The notes below the pieces were generated by a model. The model had not been told where the DNA came from and did not search any database. It saw nothing but the letters and a program-made list of their open reading frames with translations. DNA of 64,000 bases from Rheinheimera riviphila (lineage in GTDB: Bacteria; Pseudomonadota; Gammaproteobacteria; Enterobacterales; Alteromonadaceae). Of this stretch, positions 6,105 to 48,735 are shown piece by piece; position 1 is the first letter of the stretch; each line of letters starts with the position of its first letter. The stretch is taken from the NCBI RefSeq assembly GCF_004005945.1, contig NZ_SACS01000005.1:124001-188000 (forward strand), read 5' to 3'. Both the position numbers and the translations under genes were made by a program.

Positions 6105-7925
6105 ATGTCTTATGATCTCAGCAAGTTGCGCAATATAGCCATCATCGCGCACGTTGACCACGGTAAAACTACACTTGTTGACAAATTACTGCAACAATCC
6201 GGCACTTTCGATGCCCGCGCGAAGTTACAAGAACGGATGATGGATTCAAATGCGCAGGAGTCTGAGCGCGGAATTACCATCCTGGCCAAAAACACTTCAG
6301 TTCGCTGGAACGGTTACCACATCAACATCCTGGACACACCAGGCCACGCCGATTTCGGTGGTGAAGTTGAGCGCGTACTGTCAATGGCAGACTCAGTATT
6401 ACTGTTAGTTGACGCTGTTGAAGGCCCAATGCCACAAACACGTTTCGTGACGCAAAAAGCGTTCGCCCACGGTTTAAAACCAATCGTTGTCGTGAACAAA
6501 ATTGACCGTCCAGGCGCACGTCCGGATTGGGTTATTGACCAGGTATTCGACCTGTTTGACAACTTAGGCGCGACTGACGAGCAGTTAGATTTCCCAATCG
6601 TTTACGCATCAGCCATCAACGGCTGGGCGACACTTGATTACAACGAACCAAAAACTGACATCAACGACCTGTTCGCAGCGATTGTGGAGCACGTTGCACC
6701 ACCAAAAGTTGAACTGAACGGCGACACGCAGATCCAGGTTTCTCAGTTAGATTATTCCAGCTACCTTGGCATCATCGGTATCGGCCGCATCAAACGTGGT
6801 TCGTTAAAAGTGAACCAGCAAGTTACTGTATTAGGTGCTGATGGTTCAAAACGTAACGGTAAAGTGGGTCAGGTCTTCAGCTATTTAGGTCTGGAGCGGA
6901 TTGAAACTCAAGAAGCAAACGCTGGTGACATCATTGCATTCACTGGTTTAGGCGAACTGAAAATTTCTGACACTATTTGTGCCACCACCAACCTTGAAGC
7001 CTTACCACCATTACAAGTAGATGAGCCAACAGTGACCATGACCTTCCAGGTCAACACTTCGCCATTTGCTGGTAAAGAAGGTAAGTACGTGACTTCACGT
7101 CAGATTTTAGAGCGTTTAACCAACGAGCTGAAACACAACGTGGCACTGCGTGTTGAAGAAACTGAAGACGGTGACAAGTTCAAAGTGTCTGGCCGTGGTG
7201 AATTGCACTTAGGCGTTTTGATCGAAAACATGCGCCGTGAAGGTTTTGAACTGGCTGTTTCTCGTCCGGAAGTGATCATGAAAGTGGTTGACGGCGCGAA
7301 AATGGAACCCATCGAAAACGTCACCATTGACGTGGAAGAGCAGCACCAGGGCTCGATCATGGAGAAAATGGGCGAGCGTAAAGCTGAAATGACCAACATG
7401 CAGCCAGACGGTAAAGGCCGTATCCGGATGGATTTCCAGATGCCAAGCCGTGGTCTGATTGGTTTCCGTACTGAGTTTATGACGTTAACTTCAGGCACCG
7501 GCCTGATGTACAACAGCTTCGACCACTACGGCCCGTACAAAGGCGGTTCAATCGGTCTGCGGATGAACGGCGTGCTGATTTCTAACGCCATGGGTAAAGC
7601 CGCTGGTTACGCGATTTTCTCTTTGCAGGAACGTGGTCGTATGTTCATCGGTCATGCTGATGAAGTGTATGAAGGTCAGGTTATCGGTATTCACAGCCGT
7701 AGCAACGACTTAACTGTAAACTGCTTAAAAGGCAAACAGTTAACCAACGTCCGTGCATCAGGTACCGATGAAGCGATCAACTTAGTGCCGCCAATCCGCT
7801 ACACGCTGGAACAGGCACTGGAGTTTATCGACGACGACGAACTGGTAGAAGTAACACCACTGTCAATCCGTATTCGTAAACGTCACCTGACAGAAAACGA
7901 CCGTAAACGCGCCAGCCGTAGCTAA
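6105..7925 (+). CDS. typA: Ribosome-associated translational GTPase TypA/BipA
   Basis: A 606-residue member of the EF-G-like GTPases, which bind the ribosome and support growth under cold and other stresses. The G domain shows G1 (AHVDHGKTT), G3 ([11 protein letters not shown]) and G4 ([10 protein letters not shown]). Domain II, EF-G-like domains III and V, and the TypA-specific C-terminal domain ([11 protein letters not shown], ending in basic [15 protein letters not shown]) follow in order. Length matches the family (about 605). It is divergent from glnA, as in E. coli. Confidence 0.98.
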
Positions 7926-7935
7926 TAGCTCAGCG

Positions 7936-7965
7936 ATACCCCGAATCTTCAAGGATGAAGGGTAT
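7936..7965. repeat. Dispersed palindromic repeat, copy 1 (downstream of typA)
   Basis: The unit starts ATACCCCGAATCTTC and ends GATGAAGGGTAT. Its centre folds as CTTCA-AGGA-TGAAG with ATACCC/GGGTAT outer arms. Related copies are at 17964-17989 and 18059-18085 (the two ends of a composite element), 39642-39672 and 40966-40994. Confidence 0.75.
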
Positions 7966-7987
7966 CAGCGATTTCGGAAGTTTAACC

Positions 7988-8012
7988 AAAGGTCAGCAGC
8001 TGCTGGCCTTTT
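7988..8012. terminator. Terminator downstream of typA
   Basis: AAAGGTCAGCAG-CTGCTGGCCTTT forms a long, nearly perfect stem ending in TTTTG. It lies after the repeat copy and before the convergent lipoprotein gene, and probably ends typA transcription. Confidence 0.7.
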
Positions 8013-8050
8013 GCATTTATGGTTCTGATGTCGCAGGCCGTCCGCTTAAA

Positions 8051-9115
8051 TCAACGATAGGGGCACGAATCAAGTGGTTGTTGCTGCTGTTGTAATGCGG
8101 TTAATTGCTCGCTGATCGCCGTGAGTTGAGGTTGTAGTTGCTGCTGCTGTGCAATGGCGGCATGGATCGCGGCGACTGACTGATGGGTGTGTTGCACAAA
8201 CTGCTGACATTGATTGTACAGACGTTGTGGTGCGGCGATGATCTGCTGAACTTCAGCTTGCCAAGCCAGTTTAGGGCCAAAATGTTGCTGCACAAAATCG
8301 TCGGTACATTGCAGAGCATTTTCCAGTTTGACGGCATAACCAACGCCTTTGAGCACGATCCCAAAGAATTGTTCAAACCCCGATTCACTTTGGATCATCT
8401 GATTCGCGATATCGTCGGCATAGCCCGCCAGTGCATCGACGACGGCTTGATCCAGTTGATATTTTTCACCCGCCAATTCGGCGGCCATGGCAGAACAGCC
8501 CGGATTTGATAGCAACCCAGGAATTTGCAGTTGCTGAGCGGCAATACCACAACCTTCGTTTCCTAACAGTAGACTGAAACAGATAGCGCCCCCTTCACTG
8601 CGGCATTCCGGTTCGGATTGACATTTGGTGAACGGCTCCGCCGGTAATACTTGCTGTGGCGGTACCTGGCAGCTGTTTTCGGCGAATGCCGGGTGCTGTG
8701 CTAATGCCTGCATCGTGTTGGTATGAAACTGTCGCGAGTGAAGTTCGGCGTCAATCGCCGCTTGTAGCTCCTGTTCTACCTGCATTCTACGCATCGACAA
8801 ATCGCGGTATTGTGCCACCAGCGACAGCATGAAATACGGTGGTTCGGCCAGTGACTGTTGTTGCTGCAAGCTCTGCACACTAAAACACTGATCGACAACC
8901 AGCTGCGGCGGTAACGCAAAGATCAATTGGTCGCCCGATACGGTGGCCTGGCTAACCAGTTGATCCATCTGATCAACGAGCACATAACTGTCTTGCGGTG
9001 TTCCGGACATAGTAACGCGCACACTTTGGTAATCTTGTTGCAGAGTCAGCGGACGTACAGAGCAACCGCTCAGAATGACGACGGACAACAGCAGTAGCGG
9101 GAATATCCATTTCAT
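8051..9115 (-). CDS. Predicted lipoprotein with cysteine-rich centre, unknown function
   Basis: A 354-residue protein with a lipoprotein signal peptide (hydrophobic segment then lipobox LSGC at about residue 18), so probably membrane-anchored in the envelope. The middle (about 165-235) has many cysteines (TKCQSEPECRSEGGAICFS, then NEGCGI and NPGCS), suggesting disulfides in the periplasm. The C-terminal ~80 residues are Gln-rich and probably coiled coil (QQQQLQPQLTAISEQLTALQ). I do not recognise a family. It is convergent with typA and has no operon partner. Confidence 0.65.
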   Translation of the reverse strand: MKWIFPLLLLSVVILSGCSVRPLTLQQDYQSVRVTMSGTPQDSYVLVDQMDQLVSQATVSGDQLIFALPPQLVVDQCFSVQSLQQQQSLAEPPYFMLSLVAQYRDLSMRRMQVEQELQAAIDAELHSRQFHTNTMQALAQHPAFAENSCQVPPQQVLPAEPFTKCQSEPECRSEGGAICFSLLLGNEGCGIAAQQLQIPGLLSNPGCSAMAAELAGEKYQLDQAVVDALAGYADDIANQMIQSESGFEQFFGIVLKGVGYAVKLENALQCTDDFVQQHFGPKLAWQAEVQQIIAAPQRLYNQCQQFVQHTHQSVAAIHAAIAQQQQLQPQLTAISEQLTALQQQQQPLDSCPYR

Positions 9116-9353
9116 TGAAGATCCTTGTTCAATTATTGGCCATTGACACCCTTCATCGCAGCTGAGGTAGGGCTGATGCAGACTGACATCGAGGCTAGGT
9201 TAAGGCGGTACGACGTCCTGATGACTCAGACGGTGCCGCAAAATAAGCATGGTCCAGAAAATGAAAATTGTAAAAATTATGGCCAGCAGCAGCAGAGCTG
9301 TGTATTGTTCCGCTGTCTGAATTAACGGGAAGAATGGTAGTGCAGGAGCAGGC

Positions 9354-10964
9354 ATGACATCGCGACGCGCATTCTACAAAACTAAAACCGTGCTCGTGGT
9401 TGATGATTCTGATCAAATTCGCAGCTACCTGAAAAGTATGTTGCTGCTGATTGGTTTTGATGACGCGATATTGGCTCGTGATGCCGAGATGGCGCTGGGT
9501 CATTGTCGCCGGATGCCGTTTGATTTTGTGTTGTGCGATTTTCATTTAGGCCAGGGCCGTGATGGCTATCAGCTGTTTGAAGTGCTGCGCAGTGAGCAAC
9601 TGCTCAAGCCCGACTGTTGTTTTCTGGTGATCAGCGCCGAACGCCAACGTCAGGCCGTGCACGGCATGGTCGAATTCCAACCTGCTGACTATTTACTAAA
9701 ACCCTTCAGTTATGCCGAACTGGAACGCCGGATATCCCGTGCTTACCATATCCGTCAGGCGTTGCAGCTGGCCTATCAGGCGATCAATCGTAAAAATTAC
9801 GAAGAAGCGGTGCAGGCTTGCGACCATATTGTTGATCACAAAAGCCAGTACGCCATGCATGCGACGCGCTTAAAAGCCGAATTGTTGATTAAACTCGACC
9901 GTTATGACGAAGCAGAGCATTTATATACCTGGGCGCTCACCGTACGGGAGTTCGGCTGGGCTCGGCTTGGCCTGGCAGTGACTTACGGTTATCAGGGGCG
10001 GCAGGATGAAGCGGAAGCGTTATTGCAGGAGCTTTCTGGTATTGCTGAAACCAAGACCGAAGCTTTAGATTGGTTGACCCGGTTGTACATCAGTCAGAAC
10101 CGGCCGGCTGAAGCACTCACCGCCGTGGAACAAGTGGCGCGGCATTCCCCGAAAAATTATCTGCGTCAGCATGTATTGGCAACATTATCCACCATCGACA
10201 ATCAAAAGCAGCAGGCGGTACAGGTGTATCAGCGGCTGCTAACCGCGTCGCGTTATTCGATGTATGACACCGCCGACAATATGCTGAATTACGCCAGAGC
10301 CATGGTCGAAGTGGCCAAAGATCAGCAAGAAAAAGATCGCAATGACACTTTTACCCGCATCGACGCCTTTGTCACCACCATCAAAAAACGGTTTCATCCG
10401 GCGAGCTTTGAGCATGATCGGATGGTGCTGGATGCCCGGATCTTATTACTGCAGGGCAAAACCGCAAAGGCGTTGGAGCTGCTACAAAACAGTGAAGAGC
10501 TGACCCTGGAAAAACCGCTGTCGCCATCCGGCATGCTGGACCGCGCCCGCGCCTATTATGAAGCCGGTAATTTACCGATGTGTGATCACTATATGGCGGC
10601 GCTGAGTACCGTGGCGCAGGATGATGATTTGTACTGCAGCGCGCTGAATCTGATGATGCAGCACGAGCAGGTGAAACATCAGCAATTGCGGCAACAGCTG
10701 ATGCAGCAAAATGCGGCCGGGATGGATGCTTTTGGTAGTGGTCAGTATTCAATTGCGATTGAGTATTTTCGTAAAGCGCTGGAAACCATGCCGGCCAACG
10801 TTAATATTGCGTTGAATTTGCTGCAGGCGATTAGTATGCGTGAACGTCTGACCGTCGATTTACGGGCTTTGGCGCAACATTGTGTTGAGGTGATCACCGA
10901 AGGACGTTTGCCGATGGAGCAGGAAAAACGTTACCAAGTGATCCTCGGACATCTTGATTTGTAA
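9354..10964 (+). CDS. Response regulator fused to a TPR-repeat domain
   Basis: A 536-residue protein. The N-terminal CheY-like receiver (about 10-135) has the acidic pair in VVDDSD, phosphoacceptor D62 (LCDFHLG) and the conserved lysine in LLKPFSY. The rest (about 140-530) is helical and consists of degenerate tetratricopeptide repeats (NRKNYEEAVQACDHIV, LDRYDEAEHLYTWAL, GSGQYSIAIEYFRKALE). There is no DNA-binding or enzyme output domain, so signalling is probably by protein contact. No kinase gene adjoins it. The ATG follows GGAGCAGG. The receiver-TPR architecture is known in Vibrio and Shewanella relatives; the partner is unknown. Confidence 0.85.
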   Translation: MTSRRAFYKTKTVLVVDDSDQIRSYLKSMLLLIGFDDAILARDAEMALGHCRRMPFDFVLCDFHLGQGRDGYQLFEVLRSEQLLKPDCCFLVISAERQRQAVHGMVEFQPADYLLKPFSYAELERRISRAYHIRQALQLAYQAINRKNYEEAVQACDHIVDHKSQYAMHATRLKAELLIKLDRYDEAEHLYTWALTVREFGWARLGLAVTYGYQGRQDEAEALLQELSGIAETKTEALDWLTRLYISQNRPAEALTAVEQVARHSPKNYLRQHVLATLSTIDNQKQQAVQVYQRLLTASRYSMYDTADNMLNYARAMVEVAKDQQEKDRNDTFTRIDAFVTTIKKRFHPASFEHDRMVLDARILLLQGKTAKALELLQNSEELTLEKPLSPSGMLDRARAYYEAGNLPMCDHYMAALSTVAQDDDLYCSALNLMMQHEQVKHQQLRQQLMQQNAAGMDAFGSGQYSIAIEYFRKALETMPANVNIALNLLQAISMRERLTVDLRALAQHCVEVITEGRLPMEQEKRYQVILGHLDL

Positions 10965-11112
10965 ACAAACCGAAGGTAAATCATTGTTCGGTCGTGATTT
11001 TTTTGAAGTGCGTTGTCACTTAGACGTGCTGGTGAAAATCAGCGGGGTAGTTTACTGGCAATTGTGGCGGGGCTTTTGTAAACTGCCGCAGAGTTAAATA
11101 CGGGGGATTTCA

Positions 11113-12144
11113 ATGATGTGGGCTATTTCAAAGCGGTTGACTACCGTGTTGTGTTGTTGTGCCATTGGTGTTGGCTGCACCCCAGCCGATCCGTTAAAGA
11201 AGTTCAGTGGCCCGGCGCAGGGTGCAACTTACAATATCAGTTACTGGAGCGATCAACCTGTTGATCAGGCCGCCTTGCAGCAACAAATCACCGCCGAGCT
11301 GGAACGGATTGATCTGGCAATGTCGAATTACCGTCCCGATTCCACCATAGAAAAATTTAATCAGTTGCAGACGATGGAGCCGGTGGAAGTTGGCACTGAA
11401 CTGGTGCAACTGGTGGCGCAAGCCCGTTTTGTCTCATCGCAAAGCCAGGGTTGTTATGATTTGACCGTCAAACCGTTGTTTGATTTATGGGGCTTTAAAG
11501 CCGATCAGTTTCATCACCCGACACCAGAGCAACTGGAGCAGACCATGCAGTCCATCGGGATGGCGAAAATTCATGAATCCGGCGCCGGGATGTTAGCAAA
11601 ACAGTTGCCACAGTTGCGTCTTGATGTATCTTCGATCGCACAAGGCTGGACCGTTGGCCAGTTGGCGAAAATTGTCGAACAAGCGGGCATTGAAAATTAT
11701 CTGGTCGAAGTCGGTGGTGAATTGTTAGTTCGCGGGAAAAAACCGGAACAACAGGATTGGCGCGTAGCGATAGAGAAACCGCTGCCAGGAGCCCAAACCT
11801 TGCAAAAAATAATTACCGTCAAACAAAATGAACCTCTCGCGGTAATGACGTCCGGCACCTATCGCCATTATTTTGATGCGGATGGTGTGCGCTACAGTCA
11901 TGTACTGGACGCCCGTACCGGTTCACCGGTGAAACATCAAACAGTCTCCACCACGGTATTGATTGAAGATCCTACGTTGGGTGATGCCTGGTCGACCGCC
12001 TTTTTATGTTTAGGCAGTAAAGATGGTAAACCGGTCGCCGATCGGTTGGGTCTCAAAGTGTTATTTATTGATCAACAGGCCGACGAGCTGATTGAAATCA
12101 GCAGCGATGCACTGCATAAAAGTCAGGCAGTGTCATTGCAATAA
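11113..12144 (+). CDS. apbE: FAD:protein FMN transferase (ApbE family lipoprotein)
   Basis: A 343-residue ApbE-family flavin transferase, which attaches FMN to threonines of target proteins such as Na+-NQR and RNF subunits in the periplasm. It has a lipoprotein signal with Cys in GVGCTPAD. Family motifs are M-S-N-Y-R-P-D-S-T, the FDLWGF region, DVSSIAQGWTVG, the VEVGGELLVRG strand, AVMTSGTYRHYF and YSHVLDARTGSPV. Neither an NQR nor an RNF operon is in the window, so its substrate is not local. GGGGG precedes the start at normal spacing. Confidence 0.93.
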   Translation: MMWAISKRLTTVLCCCAIGVGCTPADPLKKFSGPAQGATYNISYWSDQPVDQAALQQQITAELERIDLAMSNYRPDSTIEKFNQLQTMEPVEVGTELVQLVAQARFVSSQSQGCYDLTVKPLFDLWGFKADQFHHPTPEQLEQTMQSIGMAKIHESGAGMLAKQLPQLRLDVSSIAQGWTVGQLAKIVEQAGIENYLVEVGGELLVRGKKPEQQDWRVAIEKPLPGAQTLQKIITVKQNEPLAVMTSGTYRHYFDADGVRYSHVLDARTGSPVKHQTVSTTVLIEDPTLGDAWSTAFLCLGSKDGKPVADRLGLKVLFIDQQADELIEISSDALHKSQAVSLQ

Positions 12145-12198
12145 CTGGTTGCAACGGTGTCAGACGGAAGATGCCGTCTTGCTTCGCTGGTTGTTGAT

Positions 12199-12240
12199 AG
12201 CAGGTAGCAGGTAGCAGGTAGTAGGTCGCAGGTCGCTTGT
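12199..12240. repeat. 7-bp tandem repeat (AGCAGGT)
   Basis: Three exact AGCAGGT units are followed by AGTAGGT, CGCAGGT and a diverged CGCTTGT. The array lies in the 133-bp spacer between apbE and the YihY-family gene. It is intergenic, so copy-number changes would not alter a protein but could change the spacing in front of the downstream gene. Confidence 0.8.
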
Positions 12241-12277
12241 TAACCAGAGCAGGGAACAGCATTGATGGAACGATATT

Positions 12278-13183
12278 GTGGTTAAAACCTTAGAATGGCT
12301 AAAGCAACAGCTGCAACACGGACTGCAGATCACCAGTTTGTATTTGCAGCGCTGTCAGCGCGATCAGGTCGGCATGATCAGCGGTTACCTGGCCTATATC
12401 TCGTTACTGTCGCTGGTGCCGCTGGTGGCCGTGGCGTTTTCAGTACTGAATGCTTTTCCGATGTTTTCCAGTCTGCGACAGGATATCGAAGCTTTTGTGT
12501 ATGCCAATGTGGTGCCATCGCGTGGTGATGAGCTGCAAACTTATATCAATGGTTTTGTTGAAAATATCGGCCAAATGACCACAGTCGGCGTGCTGTTTTT
12601 GCTGGTGGTGGCATTGATGCTGATGCACAACATCGACAAAACGCTGAATAAAATCTGGCGGGTGCAAAAGCGTCCCCGATTAATGATTTCGTTATCTATT
12701 TATTGGATGATCTTAACGCTCGGCCCAATTTTACTCGGCGCCTCGATTGCGATGACTTCCTATCTGGCGGCGTTAACCCATCTCGCGGACAGTTACACCC
12801 CGATTTTATCGACGCTGTTTCTGACCGTCGCGCCTTATGTGGTGAGCCTGCTGGCATTCTTTATTTTGTATCAGCTGGTGCCCAATACCAGGGTGCGCTA
12901 TCGCTACGCCTTTTGGGGCGCGTTATTCAGCTCGGTGTTGTTTGAAATGCTGAAACAAGCCTTTGCCCTTTATATTCACCATTTTCCGACTTATCAGGCG
13001 ATTTACGGTGCACTGGCATTGGTACCGATTTTGTTTGTTTGGGTGTATTTATGCTGGGTTGTGGTATTGCTGGGTGCTGAATTAACGGCTTTGCTGCAGG
13101 AACTACATCAGCGTCAGCTTGAAGTTGAAGCTGAAACAGCAGCTGAAGCTGCCAAAGCGGAGGCACTGGATGTATCACCCTGA
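12278..13183 (+). CDS. yihY: YihY/BrkB-family inner membrane protein
   Basis: A 301-residue polytopic membrane protein of the YihY/virulence factor BrkB family (function not established; once misassigned as RNase BN). About six helices are visible (LAYISLLSLVPLVAVAFSVL; TVGVLFLLVVALMLMH; the SIYWMILTLGPILL region; VAPYVVSLLAFFILYQLV; AFWGALFSSVLFE; ALALVPILFVWVYLCWVVVLLGAEL), with family motifs IDKTLNKIWRV and YQAIYGAL. The C-terminal tail is Glu/Ala-rich. The start is GTG. It opens a cluster with pip and dtd, and the yihY-dtd-yiiD order matches E. coli. Confidence 0.9.
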   Translation: MVKTLEWLKQQLQHGLQITSLYLQRCQRDQVGMISGYLAYISLLSLVPLVAVAFSVLNAFPMFSSLRQDIEAFVYANVVPSRGDELQTYINGFVENIGQMTTVGVLFLLVVALMLMHNIDKTLNKIWRVQKRPRLMISLSIYWMILTLGPILLGASIAMTSYLAALTHLADSYTPILSTLFLTVAPYVVSLLAFFILYQLVPNTRVRYRYAFWGALFSSVLFEMLKQAFALYIHHFPTYQAIYGALALVPILFVWVYLCWVVVLLGAELTALLQELHQRQLEVEAETAAEAAKAEALDVSP

Positions 13184-14156
13184 ACCGGTCGAAAGTTACC
13201 AGACGTTGATGCTGGATCGCCCGCATCAACAGCAGATTTACGTTGAGCAAAGTGGCAACCCAGCCGGGATCCCCGTGCTGATGTGCCATGGTGGTCCAGG
13301 CGGCGGCAGTTCACCGTTTCAGCGCACTTTATTTGATGCCAAACGCTATCGGATTATTTTGTTTGATCAACGCGGCTGTGGGCATTCCACGCCTTTTGCC
13401 AGCCTGGACCACAACAATACCGCACAGCTGTTGGCTGATATGGAAGCGATTCGCCAGCAGTTGCAGATTGAGCAATGGGTGGTTGCCGGTGGTTCCTGGG
13501 GCAGCACGCTGGCGCTGGCATATGCACAAATGTATCCGGATCGTTGTCTGGGTCTGATTTTGCGTGGCATTTTCCTGGCCCGGCCGGAAGATATTGATTG
13601 GCTATACCGGCCCGGCGGCGGTGCCAGTCAGTTGTTTCCGGACTATTTTGCTGACTTTTTAGCGCCGATTGCTGCGATGCCGGGAGTCGACGTGCTGGTG
13701 GCTTATCAGCAGTTATTGCAGCATGTTGATTTGCAAGTTCAAACGGTCGCAGCGCAGGCCTGGAGCCTGTGGGAAGCAAGGGTTGCCAGCTTATTACCCA
13801 ATCCGGCGATGCGCCAAGGCGCAGTGGAGCCTGAATCGGCGCTGCCGTTGGCGCGGATTGAAAATCACTATTTCCTGCATCATTGTTTTCTGGCACCTCA
13901 GCAACTGTTACGGGATTTGCATAAAGTACAGCATCTGCCTTGTTACATCGTGCATGGTCGTTATGACATTGTTTGTAAAATGGAAAACGCCTGGACCTTG
14001 GCTCAGCAGTGGCCAGGCGCTGTGCTGAAAATCGTCAACGATGCCGGTCATTCGGCCAGTGAAACTGGCATCAGCCGCGGTTTGTATGAGATGTCGGTGC
14101 TGTTGGCGGATCGGCTGTTGGCGGATCAGTTAAGCTCAGCGGGGAATACCGCGTGA
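13170..14156 (+). CDS. pip: Prolyl aminopeptidase (proline iminopeptidase)
   Basis: A 328-residue alpha/beta hydrolase of peptidase family S33 that releases N-terminal proline from peptides in the cytoplasm. It shows the oxyanion HGGPGGG motif, the nucleophile elbow GGSWGS (S109), the catalytic aspartate in HGRYDIVC and the histidine in AGHSASE. The start is the ATG after GCGGAGG, which overlaps the yihY end by 14 bp; 17 codons of upstream frame were rejected. Its stop overlaps the dtd start. It is inserted between yihY and dtd relative to E. coli. Confidence 0.94.
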
Positions 14157-14590
14157 TTGCGTTATTACAGCGGGTACGCCGTGCAGAAGTGCAGGTCGAC
14201 GATCAGGTGGTCGGCAAAATCGGACCCGGGCTGTTGGTATTGCTTGGGGTGGAAGCCACTGATCAACCGGCGATGCTGAAAAAGCTGGCCGACAAAGTAC
14301 TGAATTATCGGCTGTTTAACGACGAAAACGGCAAAATGAACCTGAATTTACAGCAAGTTGGCGGTGAGCTGTTGGTGGTGTCGCAATTTACGCTGGCGGC
14401 GGATACCAATTCCGGTTTACGACCAAGCTTTACCCCAGCGGCGTTACCGGCGGTGGCTGAGCCTTTGTATCAGCAATTTGTGCAGTATTGCAAAACACAG
14501 GGCGTGGCCGTGGCGACCGGGCAATTTGGTGCCGATATGCAAGTCAGTCTGGTCAACGATGGGCCTGTGACTTTTTGGCTGCAGGTCTGA
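14153..14590 (+). CDS. dtd: D-aminoacyl-tRNA deacylase
   Basis: A 145-residue enzyme that hydrolyses D-aminoacyl-tRNAs, protecting translation. Length is the family norm. Motifs are the N-terminal [15 protein letters not shown], the SQFTLAAD active-site segment and the C-terminal [11 protein letters not shown] with the Gly-Pro motif. The start is GTG overlapping the pip stop (GTGA), so translation is coupled. Confidence 0.97.
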
Positions 14591-14605
14591 GTTTTTTTCG
14601 GATAT

Positions 14606-15238
14606 TTACCCGCCAAGCCATAACTGATTCAGGTAACCTGGCACCTTGTAACAGACCAGTTTAACTGGCTGCTGCTGCCAGAATTGTTGCCATTGCGCTG
14701 GCGGTTCGCCCGGCAGATTGATACAAAACCAACCCTTTTCAGCCCGCAGTTGCAGGAGCGCCAGCATCAGCGCTTGCCAGTTTTCCGGCCATGGATAAAT
14801 ATCGACAAAAATCACTTCAAATCGCTCTGGTTTAACCAGTGCGTCGCAGGCAAAACTCGCGGCGTCGGCGCAGATTAAGCTTTCGTTCGGATGCGGCTGT
14901 GGCCGGAAAAATTGCTGATAAGCCTCGATGATCAGTGGCTGTTGTTCCACAGTCACCACCTGACGCTCTGGCCAGCGCGCCGCCAACACCCGATTAAATT
15001 CACCGCCGCCTAAGCCAATCTGCAATAAACGTTGCCAGGGTTTGTCGGCCAGCCAGTCCAGTAACTGCAGCAAATGCGGGTAGCTCGGACTTGCCGGTTG
15101 GTGTAGCTGCATCTGACTTTGCCGCTGGCCATTGAGCACCAAATACCGCCGCTGTTCGTCCTGCTCCACGCGCAAGTCAACCGTTGCTGTGCGTTGCCAG
15201 CTGAGAATGGCTTGAGTTCTGTTGTCGCTTTGTTCCAC
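14606..15238 (-). CDS. Spermidine-synthase-like methyltransferase-fold protein
   Basis: About 210 residues with a Rossmann fold of the spermidine synthase type: a glycine-rich loop LLQIGLGGGEFNRVLAARWP, an acidic strand end VVTVEQQPLIIEAYQQFF, and ICADAASFACDAL followed by FEVIFVDIYPWPENW. It lacks the N-terminal beta-barrel of genuine SpeE, so substrate and reaction cannot be assigned. I chose the GTG at 15238 because GAGGG stands just upstream. A longer TTG start at 15298 would leave only 2 bp to the divergent gene at 15301. Confidence 0.75.
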   Translation of the reverse strand: MEQSDNRTQAILSWQRTATVDLRVEQDEQRRYLVLNGQRQSQMQLHQPASPSYPHLLQLLDWLADKPWQRLLQIGLGGGEFNRVLAARWPERQVVTVEQQPLIIEAYQQFFRPQPHPNESLICADAASFACDALVKPERFEVIFVDIYPWPENWQALMLALLQLRAEKGWFCINLPGEPPAQWQQFWQQQPVKLVCYKVPGYLNQLWLGG

Positions 15239-15300
15239 AATGCCCTCAATTTTTATCGCTGCTGCAATCCATACTGCAGTGCTGAACCCAAGGATCAACG

Positions 15301-16221
15301 ATGAAGTGGCAGCTTATTACGCCTTCAACAGAAGCTCAATGGCAGGGCTATTATCAACTTCGCTATCAAGTGTTACGGGCACCGTGGCAACAACCACCCG
15401 GATCTGAGCGTGATGAGCTCGAAGCAGAGGCGCAGCATCGGATGATCGTGGATGCGGCAGGCGAAGTACTGGCGGTTGGCCGCTTGCATTTAGTGGATGC
15501 GGACACCGCGCAAGTACGATATATGGCGGTAGCCGAGGCCGCTCGGGGCACTGGTTTAGGCGCAGTAATGCTACAGGCGCTAGAGGAACAGGCCGTGATC
15601 ATTGGTGCAAAGCGCGTCATTTTAAATGCCCGCGACAGCGCAGTGGTTTTTTACAAAAAGTCCGGTTATCAGCTGGGTGCCGAACAATCGCCGCTATTTG
15701 GTATTGCACACTGGCAAATGCATAAAGCCCTGTATCTGGCAGGTTCTGCTGCAGAAAGGCAAAGCTGGGTGCAGGCATTAACGCTGACCTGGCAACAAGG
15801 CATTCCACTTTCTGAGTTTATGCAGTTACAGGTGCAGAGTTTTGATGGCCATCAGCTGCAATGTAAAGCGCCGCTGGCACCGAATAAAAACCCACATCAA
15901 ACCATGTTTGCCGGCAGTATTTACAGCATGGCGACCTTAACCGGTTGGGGCATGGTGTTTCTGCAAATGAAAGCTCTGGGATTACAAGGGGATATCGTGC
16001 TGGCGGATGCGCAGATCCGTTATCTGGCACCGCTGCAGCAGACACCCTCCGCCAAAGTCGACTTGCTGCAACTCAAAGGTGATTTAACGCCGCTGGCGCG
16101 TGGCCTCAAAGTGCGGCAGCACCTTAAAGTACAGATTATGGATGGCGACAATCAAGTGGCTGAATTTGAAGGGCGTTTTGTGGTGTTGCCACTACAGCCA
16201 GCACAAGGACATGGACATTGA
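15301..16221 (+). CDS. yiiD: GNAT acetyltransferase-thioesterase fusion (YiiD/FabY-like)
   Basis: A 306-residue two-domain protein. Residues about 1-140 are a GNAT fold with the acetyl-CoA loop region ARGTGLGAVMLQALEEQA and the VFYKKSGYQ strand. Residues about 150-300 match the hot-dog-like YiiD C-terminal domain (NKNPHQTMFAGSIYSMATLTGWG). E. coli YiiD/FabY has the same fusion and has been linked to initiation of fatty acid synthesis. Genomic order after yihY and dtd is the same. The next gene begins at its stop codon (TGATG). Confidence 0.85.
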   Translation: MKWQLITPSTEAQWQGYYQLRYQVLRAPWQQPPGSERDELEAEAQHRMIVDAAGEVLAVGRLHLVDADTAQVRYMAVAEAARGTGLGAVMLQALEEQAVIIGAKRVILNARDSAVVFYKKSGYQLGAEQSPLFGIAHWQMHKALYLAGSAAERQSWVQALTLTWQQGIPLSEFMQLQVQSFDGHQLQCKAPLAPNKNPHQTMFAGSIYSMATLTGWGMVFLQMKALGLQGDIVLADAQIRYLAPLQQTPSAKVDLLQLKGDLTPLARGLKVRQHLKVQIMDGDNQVAEFEGRFVVLPLQPAQGHGH

Positions 16222-17108
16222 TGCAAAAGATTCAAAACACGCAAAAAGTGGTGATTATTGGTTGCGGCTGGTTAGGGCAGCAGCTTGGAACTTTGTTGGC
16301 GGCACAAGGTTTTTTGGTGTATGGCAGTCGGCAAAGTAGTGCTGGCCTGGCGGAGTTACCCGCTGAAATTCAGCCGTTATTATTGCAGTTACCACTGCAT
16401 GTGCTGGAACTTGAACTGACGGGCATATTAAAAGACAGTTGGCTGATTTGTGCCATTCCACCTGCGGCGCGCCAGCAAAGCGCCGCAGATTATGCGCAGC
16501 AGCTACAAAGTCTGGTCGAAGTGGCGACCGTTGCCGGCGTACGTGGTGCGATCCATTGCTCCAGTACCGGGGTTTATCAGGGGCTGTCTGGCGATGTTGA
16601 TGAACAAAGCTTGCTGCCAAATTTGGAGCAAAGCGAGCTGCAAAGTATGGAACAAAGCCCTGCAGGGAACACAAAACCCCAGAACTGCCGAGCCGCCGCA
16701 CTGCTCGAAGCTGAGCAGATCCTGCAACAAATCCCGAACTGCTTTACATTAAGGCTGGCCGGACTAATTGGCCCGGGTCGCAATCCGGCGCGGTTTGGCC
16801 AGGGGCGAACCTTATCCGGACCCCAACTGCCGGTGAATCTGGTGCATGCTGCTGATATTGGTCGCTTTGTGCTGAATTTACTGACCACGACAGTGGCGCC
16901 ACACCATCAGCTGTTTAATTTGTGTTGTCCGGAGCATCCGCTCAAAGCCGATTTTTACCATACAGCAGCGGTACAAGCTGGGTTACCGCCAGTGAGTTTC
17001 AGTGCAGCGGATGAACCAGCGCGGCGGATTTTATCGCGACGTAGTCAACAACAACCTGGTTTTGAGTATCAGTTTCTATCACCATTACAGGCATTAACGT
17101 CCTGTTAA
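16221..17108 (+). CDS. NAD(P)-binding SDR-type protein (YeeZ-like)
   Basis: 295 residues. The N-terminal nucleotide-binding loop is VVIIGCGWLGQQLG, a GxGxxG variant. Other features typical of atypical extended SDR or YeeZ-like proteins are AIPPAARQ, the CSSTGVYQG strand at the position of the active-site serine/tyrosine, LRLAGLIGPGRNP, and NLVHAADIGRFVL near the C-terminus. Substrate is unknown. The ATG overlaps the upstream stop (TGATG); a TTG one codon earlier is possible but less likely. Confidence 0.8.
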   Translation: MQKIQNTQKVVIIGCGWLGQQLGTLLAAQGFLVYGSRQSSAGLAELPAEIQPLLLQLPLHVLELELTGILKDSWLICAIPPAARQQSAADYAQQLQSLVEVATVAGVRGAIHCSSTGVYQGLSGDVDEQSLLPNLEQSELQSMEQSPAGNTKPQNCRAAALLEAEQILQQIPNCFTLRLAGLIGPGRNPARFGQGRTLSGPQLPVNLVHAADIGRFVLNLLTTTVAPHHQLFNLCCPEHPLKADFYHTAAVQAGLPPVSFSAADEPARRILSRRSQQQPGFEYQFLSPLQALTSC

Positions 17109-17215
17109 ATGAGCAGATCCTGCACCGGGATTTATCAGATTTTTATCACAGCTCAATTAAGTTTCGAAATCCGAACCGGCAGATAATCTGCGGCAACTTC
17201 ACACAAGGTTGCCGT

Positions 17216-17803
17216 ATGACAAACAAATGGATCCTGGGTTCAGCTTTAAGTACTTTGGCTGGTATTGTAGCGGCAGCAGTTTATCTGGTGTTGCTGCAGC
17301 CGATACATGAGCCTCGCGAACTGCCGAATTATCATGCGGAATGGTTGTTGTGGTTTTTTCTGGCGATGGTGCTGGTGTCGATGCTGGTCAATTTGTCGGT
17401 GTTGATTGCGCCCCCAGCCAGCTGGCTGAAGTTGTTGCCAAGGATAGCTTCGAATCAGCACAGTCATAAACAGCAATTAAATCAATATCAACAGCAGCTG
17501 CAATTGTTTTTGCAGCTGCACCAGTCCCAGCTGCAACGGTTAACCAGTCAGGCAGATATTTATTTGTGGGGGTTGCCACCGCAGCCGGTGTTATTACAAA
17601 TTGCCGTGAACGGAACACAGCAGGCGGGTATAGAAGAAATGCGACAGTTGTTTCGCTGGATGTTGACCCATCAATGCCGGCAAGGATTTTATCTGTCGCC
17701 CCAACCCCCCGATCTGCAAGCCGAAATTTTCGCCAGAGAAGCCGGCATCGACATCGTTGATCTGCAGACACTGCAAAAACTGCATTTAGCAGTGAATGGA
17801 TAA
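17216..17803 (+). CDS. Small membrane protein with possible nuclease-fold C-terminus
   Basis: A 195-residue protein with two N-terminal helices (ILGSALSTLAGIVAAAVYLV; WLLWFFLAMVLVSMLVNLSV), then a Gln-rich coiled segment (about 80-110), and a soluble C-terminal domain (about 110-190). The end, GFYLSPQPPDLQAEIFAREA then GIDIVDLQTLQKL, resembles the last strands and helices of Mrr-like endonuclease-fold domains, where a strand, an 'A..FA' helix and '.IDL..L' follow each other. The catalytic D-ExK motif is not evident, so activity is doubtful. Family not recognised; the fold idea is inference. Confidence 0.6.
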   Translation: MTNKWILGSALSTLAGIVAAAVYLVLLQPIHEPRELPNYHAEWLLWFFLAMVLVSMLVNLSVLIAPPASWLKLLPRIASNQHSHKQQLNQYQQQLQLFLQLHQSQLQRLTSQADIYLWGLPPQPVLLQIAVNGTQQAGIEEMRQLFRWMLTHQCRQGFYLSPQPPDLQAEIFAREAGIDIVDLQTLQKLHLAVNG

Positions 17804-17936
17804 ATTCCTTCGCAAATCAATGATAATATCAAGTTTTCATAAGGTTTTTCTTGTCTCTGTTTTGGCAATATGGAATGGCTTTAACTGAGAAAGGAACAAC
17901 ATAAATCCAAGGTTGGATACCAAACGCTCCCTGCCT

Positions 17937-17960
17937 GGCTGGACTTAGTCCAGCCTTTTT
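17937..17960 (+). terminator. Rho-independent terminator
   Basis: GGCTGGAC-TTA-GTCCAGCC followed by TTTTT is a perfect 8-bp stem with a three-base loop. It ends the plus-strand cluster about 130 bp after the small membrane protein gene. Confidence 0.9.
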
Positions 17961-17963
17961 CTT

Positions 17964-18085
17964 ATACCCGTCATCCTTGAAGATTCGGGGTTGTTGCCTT
18001 CGCTCGCCTCAGTCACATAGGACAACTATGCTCCTGAGGTCTCGCTCGTTCGTCGCCTACCCGAATCATCAATGATTTTGGGTAT
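17964..18085. repeat. 122-bp composite palindromic element
   Basis: The two ends are divergent, inverted copies of the dispersed repeat: ACCCGTCATCCTTGAAGATT on the left and ACCCGAATCATCAATGATTT ending GGGTAT on the right. Between them a central hairpin is visible: CTCAG...CTGAG enclosing CATAG-GACAA-CTATG. The pattern is that of a small non-coding mobile palindromic element (MITE-like). It fills most of the 328-bp spacer between the membrane protein and chemoreceptor genes; the terminator is the only other feature there. Confidence 0.65.
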
Positions 18086-45445: not shown

Positions 45446-45496
45446 TTCGTACACCTGCGATCTTACCCCGAGCCTTGCTCTCAAAAGATTGACTCT

Positions 45497-45590
45497 CAAA
45501 AAATGAGCCTCAAAGCATATGCATCCAAAACATGTGCTTCCAAAGCATATGCTCCCAAAACATATGCTTCCAAAACACCGGCTGTCAAAA
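45497..45590. repeat. 15-bp tandem repeat array
   Basis: Five clear units begin at 45511, 45526, 45541, 45556 and 45571. The pattern is CAAAgCATATGCttC with a CAAAa variant; a truncated leading unit starts at 45497. Because the period is a multiple of three, all frames show pentapeptide repeats; the plus frame from 45503 reads KAYAS, KTCAS, KAYAP, KTYAS, KTPAV. Confidence 0.85.
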
Positions 45591-45769
45591 ATTTGGCAGT
45601 TCGAACAGCTCGCGGTCCATCTCACGAAATACAAGGTCTTGACGCAAGATCGTCAGCAATCTGCGTTCCGATTGCCGCAACGACATTTTCTTCCGCTCGA
45701 TCGGCAGATGCTTGCCGCCAGCACGAGATTTGGGGCGGCGCAAAGTACAGAGCTGTCGGCCTGAAATAG
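45503..45769 (+). other. Doubtful repeat-containing open frame
   Basis: An 88-codon frame starts ATGAGCC and spans the 15-bp repeat array. It encodes pentapeptide repeats followed by a Ser/Ala-rich stretch with no recognised domain. No ribosome site precedes the start, and another plus-strand frame and an antisense frame are equally open, so the openness follows from the repeat. Listed because this otherwise gene-free 655-bp region has no better candidate; a decayed gene is also possible. Confidence 0.2.
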
Positions 45770-45875: not shown

Positions 45876-46012
45876 AGGCGTAGCCTCCCAGCTATTTGTT
45901 GTTTTCAGGCATAAATGGCGGCCAAGAAATTGGCATTTATTGTTGGCCTGATAGTTGCTCTATCACATTGTAAGGATTACTGACCCTGCCTCAGGAACGG
46001 GCGCGATGTGAT
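45876..46012 (+). ncRNA. Structured 5' leader upstream of the double-glycine peptide gene
   Basis: A nested stem is visible: CAGCTAT (45889-45895) with ATAGTTG (45951-45957), CAGGC (45906-45910) with GCCTG (45946-45950), ATAAAT (45911-45916) with ATTTAT (45935-45940), and GCCAA-GAAA-TTGGC (45921-45934) closing on a GAAA tetraloop. A competing hairpin TGATAG-TTGCT-CTATCA (45949-45965) uses the 3' strand. A further pair is ATCACAT (45962-45968) with ATGTGAT (46006-46012). A small AGGC-GTA-GCCT hairpin lies upstream. The strand is inferred from the downstream gene. It fits no riboswitch class I can name. Confidence 0.5.
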
Positions 46013-46059
46013 GACAATAAAAAAACAGACAAATAAACTTACAAATTAGGGATTTACTC

Positions 46060-46242
46060 ATGAAGTTATTCAATGCACAATCGAACGATACACAAGTCAA
46101 CCAGATCAAAGCCGCTGTTGCGACAATTGACACTTTAGAGTCTAAAGTGTTGGTATCAAAAGATTTATTAGCTACGGTTGCGGGTGGTGTTAATGAAGTT
46201 GTGCGCCCTTGGCCACCAACAGATCTGGGTTCAAACTTATAG
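46060..46242 (+). CDS. Putative double-glycine-leader peptide precursor (bacteriocin- or RiPP-like)
   Basis: A 60-residue peptide. The leader ends VSKDLLATVAGG with Gly42-Gly43. Relative to the cleavage point, V-12, S-11, L-7, V-4, G-2 and G-1 fit the double-glycine leader consensus processed by C39 peptidase/ABC exporters. The predicted core is 17 residues, VNEVVRPWPPTDLGSNL, with an RPWPP motif and no cysteine, so no lanthionine or disulfide is expected. TAGGG lies 8 bp before the ATG. No exporter or modification enzyme is nearby. A membrane protein gene starts 6 bp after the stop. Identity and activity are inference. Confidence 0.65.
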   Translation: MKLFNAQSNDTQVNQIKAAVATIDTLESKVLVSKDLLATVAGGVNEVVRPWPPTDLGSNL

Positions 46243-46248
46243 GCAAGA

Positions 46249-46854
46249 GTGAACAGAGCAAAAAATACCGCTAAAGATTTATTGTGCCTGACAGTTTGTA
46301 CATTGTCTTTGGCGGCTATTTTTTACTTCGGGAATACCTTATACAACTATCTTGCAACGACTATTGCCATCCTGACCGTTGGCTTTTTTAGTTTATCCCG
46401 CCGCGAAAATTTGCCGATCTTACTGTTTGTGATTGGCATACAGCTTCTTGAATTTACCCTGGGCACGATGTTAGAACGGGTCCAATTATTACAATTAACC
46501 GCCGCTTCATTGCTTGACCTCTTATTGGCATTTTGTATCGTGCACTACCATAACGACCCAGCACTTCGCAGACTATTTAAAATCAATGAACCGGTAAAAC
46601 GAGTGCCGCAAGTGTATCTAATATCACTGGTGCTGGCATTTTCGTCGTTATTTTCGTTTTTGATGGCAGGCGAAGTGATGTTTTATTACATCGATAAGAA
46701 CATCTTTAATGGTGAGGTGCCGCTTTTTTATAGCATCAGTGGTTCGGTAAAACTGACGATTAAAGTGTTGTTTGATTTAGCAATTTGGTCGTTGTTACTG
46801 ACCCCGGGCCACTGGAAATTTTTACGTCGCATCGAACAGCGATTTGATCTGTAA
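46249..46854 (+). CDS. Six-helix membrane protein coupled to the peptide gene, possible immunity or handling protein
   Basis: 201 residues. About six hydrophobic helices are visible (LLCLTVCTLSLAAIFYFG; YLATTIAILTVGFFSL; LPILLFVIGIQLLEF; LLQLTAASLLDLLLAFCIV; YLISLVLAFSSLFSFLMAG; IKVLFDLAIWSLLL), with short loops and a basic C-terminus (RRIEQRFDL). It has no CPBP-protease or transporter signature I can see. The start is GTG, 6 bp after the peptide gene stop with AGGCAAG as ribosome site, which implies translational coupling. The stretch looks more AT-rich than its neighbours. An immunity role is inferred from context only. Confidence 0.6.
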   Translation: MNRAKNTAKDLLCLTVCTLSLAAIFYFGNTLYNYLATTIAILTVGFFSLSRRENLPILLFVIGIQLLEFTLGTMLERVQLLQLTAASLLDLLLAFCIVHYHNDPALRRLFKINEPVKRVPQVYLISLVLAFSSLFSFLMAGEVMFYYIDKNIFNGEVPLFYSISGSVKLTIKVLFDLAIWSLLLTPGHWKFLRRIEQRFDL

Positions 46855-46962: not shown

Positions 46963-48735
46963 ATGTCTCATCGCGCTTATCTGTTTTCATTGCGGATTGC
47001 CCATGCCCTGCGGGAAACGGCCGCTGAAGGTTATCACCGGCAGCAACTCTATAAAGATGTGATGGCTGGGATCCGCGTGGGCATTATCGCCATTCCTTTG
47101 GCGATGGCGTTGGCGATTGCCAGTGGGGTGCCGCCGCAATATGGCTTGTACACTGCGATTATCGCCGGTTTTATCATTCCGTTGTGTGGTGGTTCCAGAT
47201 ACAGCGTGTCCGGCCCGACCGCCGCTTTTGTGGTGATTTTATATCCGGTGGCGCAAAAATATGGCCTCGGCGGTTTGTTACTGGCAACCATGCTGTCAGG
47301 TGGTTTGCTGGTGCTGATGGCCACTTTGCGACTTGGGCGCTTTATTGAATACATCCCGGAAGCCGTCACCTTAGGTTTCACTGCAGGTATTGCCGTGGTG
47401 ATTGCCACTTTGCAAATCAAAGACTTATTTGGCTTACAGCTCGCCAATATGCCCGAGCATTACATCGAAAAACTGCATGCGCTGATGCTGGCGGCAGATA
47501 CCGCTCACTGGCCTAGTCTGGTCGTTGCCGCTGTCACTTTGTTGACGATGCTGAAATGGCCGAAACTCAATACCGCTATTCCCGCCCATTTACCTGCGGT
47601 GTTAGCCGGTACGCTCGCGGCACTGCTGCTCGGCTGGTTTAATTTTCCGGTTGAAACCATTGGCAGTCGTTTTCAGTACACCGATCTCAACGGTGCGATA
47701 GCTGCTGGTATTCCCGATATGCTGCCTAGTTTTATCTGGCCCTGGCAGCAAGCTGGCGCCGATGGTGGTGCGCTGATCTGGAGTTCGCAGATGGTGAAAG
47801 ACTTGTTAGCTGCGGCCTTTGCGATGGCGATGTTAGGCGCTATTGAATCTTTACTTTGCGCAGTGGTACTGGATGGCATGACTGGCCGCCGCCATAGTGC
47901 CAACAGTGAATTGCTGGGGCAGGGCATTGGCAATCTGCTGACGCCGTTTTTTGGCGGTATTACCGCAACGGCTGCGATTGCGCGTTCGTCCGCCAATGTG
48001 AAAGCTGGGGCGCAGTCGCCGTTGGCGGCGATGATCCATGCTTTGGTCGTATTGCTGGCGCTGTTGGTATTGTCAAAATGGCTGGCTTATTTGCCGATGG
48101 CAGCAATGGCAGCGCTGCTGTTAATGGTGGCGTGGAATATGAGTGATGCCGCTAAAGCGCTGCATCTCATCAATACTGCACCGCGCAGTGATATCTGGGT
48201 GTTTAGTGTATGTTTTTCTTTTACCGTGCTGTTTGACATGGTGGTGGCGATTACCTGCGGCATTATCTTTGCGGCCTTGTTGTTTGTGCGGGAAGTGGCT
48301 GAAATGACCAAGGTTTCCGATGTCACTGACAGCCCAAAGCTGGTACCGGATAAGCTGGCAGATGGGATTAAAGTATTTCGCATTAGTGGCCCATTGTTTT
48401 TTGCAGCGGCAGACCGGGTTTTTGCGGAACTGTTAGCACTTTGCAAAGGTCAGCATTCGGTAGTGCTGGTGATGGATGGTGTTTCAGTCCTGGATGCCGG
48501 TGGCTTAGTCGCTTTGGATAAATTTATCAGCGCTTGTGATCATGCCAACTGCCAGATCTTGCTCGCCGATTTGCAATTTCAGCCGCTGAAAACTTTGGCC
48601 AAAGCGAAAATCCGGCCGGTGGAAGGCTTGCTGGCGTTTTATCCGACGTTGACCGAAGCGCTGAAAGTTCTGCCGACCAAAGAGCAGCAATGGCAGGACG
48701 CTGAACAAAATACCTTACATGATTCCGGGCTTTAA
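46963..48735 (+). CDS. dauA: SulP-family anion transporter with STAS domain (DauA-like)
   Basis: 590 residues. It has 10-12 or more membrane helices with the SulP signature region GIRVGIIAIPLAMALAIASG and QYGLYTAIIAGFIIPL, then GPTAAFVV and the TATAAIARSSANVKAGAQSP segment. The C-terminal cytoplasmic STAS domain (about 465-565) has VFRISGPLFFAAADRV and VLVMDGVSVLDAGGLVAL. E. coli DauA (YchM, 559 residues) takes up C4-dicarboxylates; sulfate or bicarbonate are alternatives. The gene stands alone before the arg operon. Confidence 0.88.
   Translation: MSHRAYLFSLRIAHALRETAAEGYHRQQLYKDVMAGIRVGIIAIPLAMALAIASGVPPQYGLYTAIIAGFIIPLCGGSRYSVSGPTAAFVVILYPVAQKYGLGGLLLATMLSGGLLVLMATLRLGRFIEYIPEAVTLGFTAGIAVVIATLQIKDLFGLQLANMPEHYIEKLHALMLAADTAHWPSLVVAAVTLLTMLKWPKLNTAIPAHLPAVLAGTLAALLLGWFNFPVETIGSRFQYTDLNGAIAAGIPDMLPSFIWPWQQAGADGGALIWSSQMVKDLLAAAFAMAMLGAIESLLCAVVLDGMTGRRHSANSELLGQGIGNLLTPFFGGITATAAIARSSANVKAGAQSPLAAMIHALVVLLALLVLSKWLAYLPMAAMAALLLMVAWNMSDAAKALHLINTAPRSDIWVFSVCFSFTVLFDMVVAITCGIIFAALLFVREVAEMTKVSDVTDSPKLVPDKLADGIKVFRISGPLFFAAADRVFAELLALCKGQHSVVLVMDGVSVLDAGGLVALDKFISACDHANCQILLADLQFQPLKTLAKAKIRPVEGLLAFYPTLTEALKVLPTKEQQWQDAEQNTLHDSGL

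Follow-up and report, generated by a model that had tools for sequence, protein, structure and literature searches.

A double-glycine-leader peptide and a six-helix membrane protein form a cassette in Rheinheimera that apparently belongs to a wider family of secreted-peptide systems

Much is known of how Gram-positive bacteria communicate and fight with double-glycine-leader peptides, and little of how Gram-negative bacteria do so. In streptococci, HdrRM-type membrane-inhibitor regulatory pairs place the gene of a DNA-binding protein beside that of a polytopic membrane protein; the loci described below, in which an XRE-type gene accompanies a six-helix protein in relatives of a Rheinheimera cassette, resemble those pairs in this respect only, the protein families being different. 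The mcbABCI operon of Moraxella catarrhalis and the nap island of Neisseria gonorrhoeae each join double-glycine peptides to partner genes and local processing genes, with roles in killing or autolysis (PMC2761928, PMC11798529). Like the Rheinheimera cassette, mcbABCI pairs a Gram-negative double-glycine peptide with an adjacent partner gene; unlike it, it holds its exporter genes within the operon, and McbI, at 74 amino acids, is a tested immunity factor (PMC2761928). The nap island resembles the loci described here in having a regulator, double-glycine peptides and a partner gene in one locus and short mature peptides of 16-36 amino acids, and differs in its cationic peptides, its local C39 peptidase and its autolysis role (PMC11798529). 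Class II microcins share with our cassette a GG or GA leader, a C39-ABC transporter, a membrane fusion protein and an adjacent small membrane protein, whereas here the exporter is unlinked, the core is far shorter and free of cysteine, and relatives have XRE genes and multi-core precursors (PMC9746304).

The cassette lies on the forward strand of the window, by which we mean the whole 64,000-nucleotide stretch of Rheinheimera riviphila DNA that was analysed (contig NZ_SACS01000005.1). The peptide precursor frame (46060-46242; ATG at 46060, stop at 46240-46242) has 60 amino acids, and AGGG stands 8 nt 5' of its ATG. Its leader of 43 codons (46060..46188) ends in ATVAGG and was aligned with the leaders of the ten carriers in the genus; the leader end, VSKDLLATVAGG, has V at -12, S at -11, L at -7, V at -4 and G at -2 and -1. 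Cleavage after GG would release a predicted mature core of 17 residues, VNEVVRPWPPTDLGSNL (46189..46239), which lacks cysteine, has a charge of -1 and contains RPWPP. A GTG at 46249, 6 nt after the peptide stop, opens the frame of a 201-amino-acid membrane protein (46249..46854), the candidate cognate partner of the peptide, as receptor or immunity protein. The sequence-only reading had described both frames, the 60-residue one with its leader and cysteine-free core and the GTG-started one 6 nt beyond it, and both stood. Upstream of the peptide, the non-coding stretch at 45930..46059 (forward strand) is closely similar in G012 when the alignment is inspected by eye and may hold the promoter; a promoter scan there was not above chance. 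Rfam gave two matches, both of them under the gathering score. The preceding gene, which we take to be metL-like, ends at 45404, and short near-repeats like CCAAAACATATGCTT can be seen by eye in the non-coding stretch behind it (45490-45600). Downstream, a gene for a SulP-type transporter (46963..48735, forward strand) is a constant neighbour, outside the system.

Among 351 window open reading frames of 40-90 amino acids, four matched a loose double-glycine pattern and one, this peptide, matched a strict leader pattern that had been written with the peptide already known; 40 second-order Markov windows gave means of 1.5 loose and 0.0 strict matches. Curated NCBIfam models of double-glycine leaders did not match the window peptide, and three peptides from the genus gave weak, sub-threshold matches to TIGR04497 that were confined to the leader. 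The changes that separate the frame from its counterparts in close relatives are mostly synonymous, which we consider better evidence for a real gene than any motif. From these comparisons, the 60-codon leader frame and the six-helix protein are confirmed as a real two-gene cassette.

The cassette recurs within the genus. We found the membrane protein in 10/22 genomes (E <= 0.01), at one place before sulP, with a peptide frame directly before the membrane gene in all ten; sulP follows in nine, and the contig of G012 stops short of it. The seven loci in named genomes belong to six Rheinheimera and one unclassified gammaproteobacterium; Rheinheimera texasensis DSM 17496 is a culturable carrier among the named genomes. 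A peptide profile, built from nine rows representing the ten carriers' own peptides, retrieved the same carriers at E <= 5.3e-10; in the other 12 genomes no E value was below 0.045. The leaders have M(K/Q)..NA(Q/K)S in common and the cores vary widely. Recurrence of the pair in related genomes, which the sequence-only reading had set as a check, is thus borne out, and the frameshifts, stops or loss of the leader that would have spoken against it did not appear: 10/10 frames are intact and nine end in GG, the tenth (G010) having GK. Genomes with and without the pair seem to fall into separate clades, so co-occurrence does not count as independent evidence.

Within clades the peptide frame is under purifying selection. 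In G007, G015 and G018 the core is identical at 18/18 positions with dS of 0.08-0.75, and of the changes in the leader 8-13 are synonymous and 0-3 are not. Between G000, the window's own genome, and G012 the core gives dN 1.02 and dS 0.61 (14 codons) and the leader 0.30 and 0.73. Some pairs show a cassette far more diverged than the neighbouring transporter gene: G009 and G021 have dS 0.16 and dN 0.003 over 300 codons of sulP, while leader dS is 0.63 and the membrane protein is saturated in dS with dN 0.30; G000 and G006 are identical at 285/300 SulP residues, and their membrane proteins are 48% identical. This disparity suggests that some lineages have exchanged cassettes or diversified strongly. 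Not every pair has the faster cassette: in G007 and G015 leader dS (0.28) is below that of sulP (0.43), and their peptide has no sign of either process.

A fast-changing core, a cassette that outruns sulP and a patchy distribution would all suit a class II microcin-like bacteriocin with its immunity protein, the exported peptide harming relatives without the cognate membrane protein. Such a function is quite possible, if short of probable. The GG or GA leader agrees with it, as do the C39-ABC and HlyD genes that the genome carries and the size of the neighbouring protein, which at 201 amino acids falls within the 51-216 given for known class II microcin immunity proteins (PMC9746304). The stable core of G007, G015 and G018 argues against it.

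The membrane protein itself resembles nothing named in the family libraries searched. AlphaFold2 predicted six membrane-length helices both from 11 sequences (pLDDT 81.0) and from 42 (pLDDT 89.2, pTM 0.83), and D90 and E142 are near-invariant among those 42 family members. The window protein had no match in Pfam, NCBIfam, PADLOC or PHROGs; the 42 members gave only weak matches, by single members, in Pfam and NCBIfam and none in PADLOC and PHROGs. The suggestion that this may be a new type is accordingly in keeping with the databases, none of which names the protein. Neither predicted model matched the PDB in Foldseek at E <= 0.001, and the protein found nothing among PDB sequences at E <= 1. 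The best VIA scores, Z 9.3 to proteorhodopsin for one model (rmsd 4.3 over 173 residues) and Z 10.5 to a designed bundle for the other (rmsd 3.9 over 132), do not amount to a convincing fold match because helical bundles can reach such values without kinship. The R. riviphila assembly (4.75 Mb, 114 contigs) has a second copy of the protein at the end of contig C20 (L014 / L068). Its upstream part is lost at the contig boundary, beyond which any peptide would lie, and the short frame beside it resembles a transposon accessory gene.

What would export the peptide? The sequence-only reading had placed the exporter elsewhere on the chromosome, and on contig C26 of the same genome we found a C39-ABC protein, its catalytic Cys, His and Asp in place by eye, with an HlyD partner (HlyD_3 and related Pfam matches), near purL. 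That expectation holds for the window's genome and fails to extend to all carriers, since three of the ten have no PF03412 match and one of these three has GK. Full-length orthologues of both exporter proteins occur in six of the ten (G000, G006, G009, G012, G016 and G021), beside purL in G006, G012 and G021; in G009, whose purL contig is cut, a different contig carries the exporter. The exporter stretches of G006, G012 and G021 held no lanthipeptide genes and no convincing local double-glycine peptide. No exporter directly follows purL in G007, G010, G015 or G018; the C39 exporter of G018 is a different one (40% identity), accompanied by a cysteine-containing double-glycine peptide of its own. 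In 11/12 non-carriers another gene follows purL, and G008 cannot be judged; one non-carrier, G013, has a similar exporter (C39 62%, HlyD 46%). PF03412 was found in 19/22 genomes of the genus, those without it (G007, G010 and G015) all being carriers. With orthologues in six carriers only, export in trans by the C39/HlyD pair fits those six well and not all ten.

Two other possibilities in the same genome were rejected. A C39-like ABC protein on C21, which has an RTX-type neighbour, was ruled out as the exporter because its catalytic residues are missing by eye; its locus (L067, G000:C21:51000-69000, at 8401-18001) combines this ABC exporter and its degenerate C39-like domain with an HlyD-sized gene and a very large downstream frame, an arrangement like that of RTX-type secretion loci. 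The peptide was rejected as a lanthipeptide, its core having no cysteine and LanB, LanC and a cysteine-rich double-glycine precursor being at C26, not at the cassette. There, on the minus strand, they form a class I lanthipeptide-like cluster adjoining the HlyD/C39-ABC exporter (L066, G000:C26:201000-219000, about 7248-15594).

The retention of an intact frame in three carriers without a PF03412 match, together with GK in G010 and precursors elsewhere that have no GG (L194, L197 and L208, below), would suit a peptide that acts inside the cell, for example as a small partner of the membrane protein or as its regulator, with GG a by-product of a helix end. We consider this improbable: in other genera GG or GA frames stand upstream of the membrane gene far more often than upstream of control frames, some precursors hold several GG-core units, and three loci (L185, L199 and L204) have leaders that look Sec-like by eye.

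Those relatives were reached by profile searches. The genus profile (A1) had two weak matches in another genus, in G041 (E about 3e-5), and both loci have an XRE-type gene, a short peptide (one GG, one GS) and the membrane gene. Adding G041 (A3) led to a match in G039, whose protein led to G365, with the same gene order in both; at E <= 0.02 the resulting A4 profile matched 37/395 family genomes, those of genus g14 giving five to six matches apiece and G041 giving five. A3 searches of the order and the class found 8/394 and 2/369 genomes at E <= 0.01, nearly all short stretches when outside the genus. In hhalign the genus proteins (A1) aligned with 26 relatives (A7) over their length at a probability of 95.9, against 0.4 when the relatives were reversed; A1 against A8 (G041) gave 96.3, and A8 against A7 only 67.4. 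By these searches the membrane protein has relatives elsewhere in the family, in Pseudoalteromonas and other genera. One G041 peptide passes the TIGR01847 and NF033456 cut-offs. A plasmid search was negative with the window protein, L208 and L195 DNA, and with relatives returned three Pseudoalteromonas records; a phage search with the L191 protein and a viral contig search with the L189 protein found nothing. In L214 and L215, both from Pseudoalteromonas, the XRE gene comes first, then a double-glycine peptide and last the membrane protein, and in L214 (NZ_CP072685.1, Pseudoalteromonas sp. SCSIO 43201) the unit sits on a plasmid among contractile phage-tail-like genes. The gene table of L214, incomplete by its own description, lists the XRE and membrane genes and not the peptide, so such peptides may be missed.

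We compared 41 of the A4 matches, from 40 fetched stretches and including weak ones (E up to 0.0027). The usual order is XRE regulator, short peptide, six-helix protein. An XRE-type gene lies upstream in 38/41 loci, eight of which were model seeds, against 0/10 in Rheinheimera, and it still precedes the membrane gene where no upstream peptide was seen, which argues against a bacteriocin. If the system were nevertheless a microcin, the XRE protein would regulate its production and carriers without an exporter would be immune non-producers. GG or GA was present in 31/41 loci, and by a pattern written after the members had been seen a GG/GA frame stands just upstream in 29/41, against 4/119 control long open reading frames. 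L202, with its three-core precursor, is counted apart from these 29. L206 has a GG that the pattern missed, and L208 has GS. In L194 and L197 there is no GG but a related motif at the C-terminus, and the GG peptide of L211 follows its membrane gene. Downstream frames with leaders that look Sec-like by eye were found in L185, followed by GTKTPDPK, in L199, followed by two SGGTKGDPI units, and in L204 (G161:C12), where four near-identical small frames in tandem have VGGKLPPD; the GG pattern also fits an overlapping frame downstream in L185. No peptide was found in L203, L212 or L213. None of these 40 stretches had a relative of the C39-ABC or HlyD protein of the window's genome.

Many cores of these relatives share a motif that the window core lacks. 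The motif GSGxxxxGxxP[KR] or close forms, again written after the members were seen, occurs in 19/29 peptides (some shortened to an inner start; L179, L196, L200, L202, L205, L211 and the Sec-like ones left out) against 1.5% of shuffles, and is absent from the window core. In 16 examined, cores have 13-36 residues, a charge of -3 to +2 and no hydrophobic character; such short, hydrophilic, non-cationic peptides, like the 17-residue one in the window, again count against a microcin. So do the several similar cores in single precursors, three in L202 and four in L216 (Pseudoalteromonas piscicida); repeated units, not always with GG, occur also in L182, L187, L189, L190 and L198. The same loci bear on whether the frame might be a translational leader peptide whose proline-rich end stalls ribosomes and so controls the downstream membrane gene. 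RPWPP near the end of the frame and the 6-nt gap invite that idea, which we nonetheless regard as very improbable indeed: the gap in relatives ranges from an overlap to about 300 nt, the L211 peptide lies on the wrong side of its partner, and neither the conservation of the leader end nor the multi-core forms would be explained. A VTLSxEA-like stretch is common to L194, L197, G007, G010, G015 and G018. G007 (L092, G007:C26, about 1405-2220) has in addition a second VTLSAEA-type, proline-rich frame of 84 amino acids, followed by a 179-amino-acid polytopic protein with no detectable kinship to the six-helix protein.

Taken as a whole, the comparisons make an exported peptide with a cognate membrane partner likely. 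The C39 transporter with its HlyD partner, encoded near purL, would cut after GG and export the 17 residues beyond it, which the membrane protein would recognise. As to its role, we tentatively place cell-cell or self signalling, at a little under an even chance, only just ahead of a microcin with its immunity protein; in signalling the membrane protein would be a receptor or an inhibitor, working in most relatives with the XRE regulator whose gene precedes the unit. Signalling is favoured by the XRE neighbour, the several cores per precursor, the short hydrophilic cores and the Sec-like and other leaders, about as much as toxin and immunity. Against it we count the lack of an XRE gene at 10/10 Rheinheimera loci and of the relatives' motif in the window core, the three carriers that keep the peptide under selection without PF03412, the restriction of the exporter orthologue to 6/10, and the cassette exchange and fast core change, which also suit bacteriocins. 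With no XRE gene at the Rheinheimera loci, the role of the window copy is less certain than that of its relatives.

It is conceivable, though on balance doubtful, that these loci make up an undescribed Gram-negative signalling family of XRE regulator, six-helix receptor and short secreted peptide, in which the leader has been exchanged (double-glycine, Sec-like, VTLSxEA) while receptor and regulator stayed constant, and of which Rheinheimera would be a fast-diverging branch without a regulator gene at the locus. Our literature search, beyond whose reach most subscription papers lay, found no title describing this family, and the cassette apparently belongs to a wider family of secreted-peptide systems that is not yet described. 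The family is a compact unit in harmless aquatic bacteria that can be cultured, and its cores are short enough for synthesis; whether it is a new family of signals or a set of very short microcins would be directly testable.
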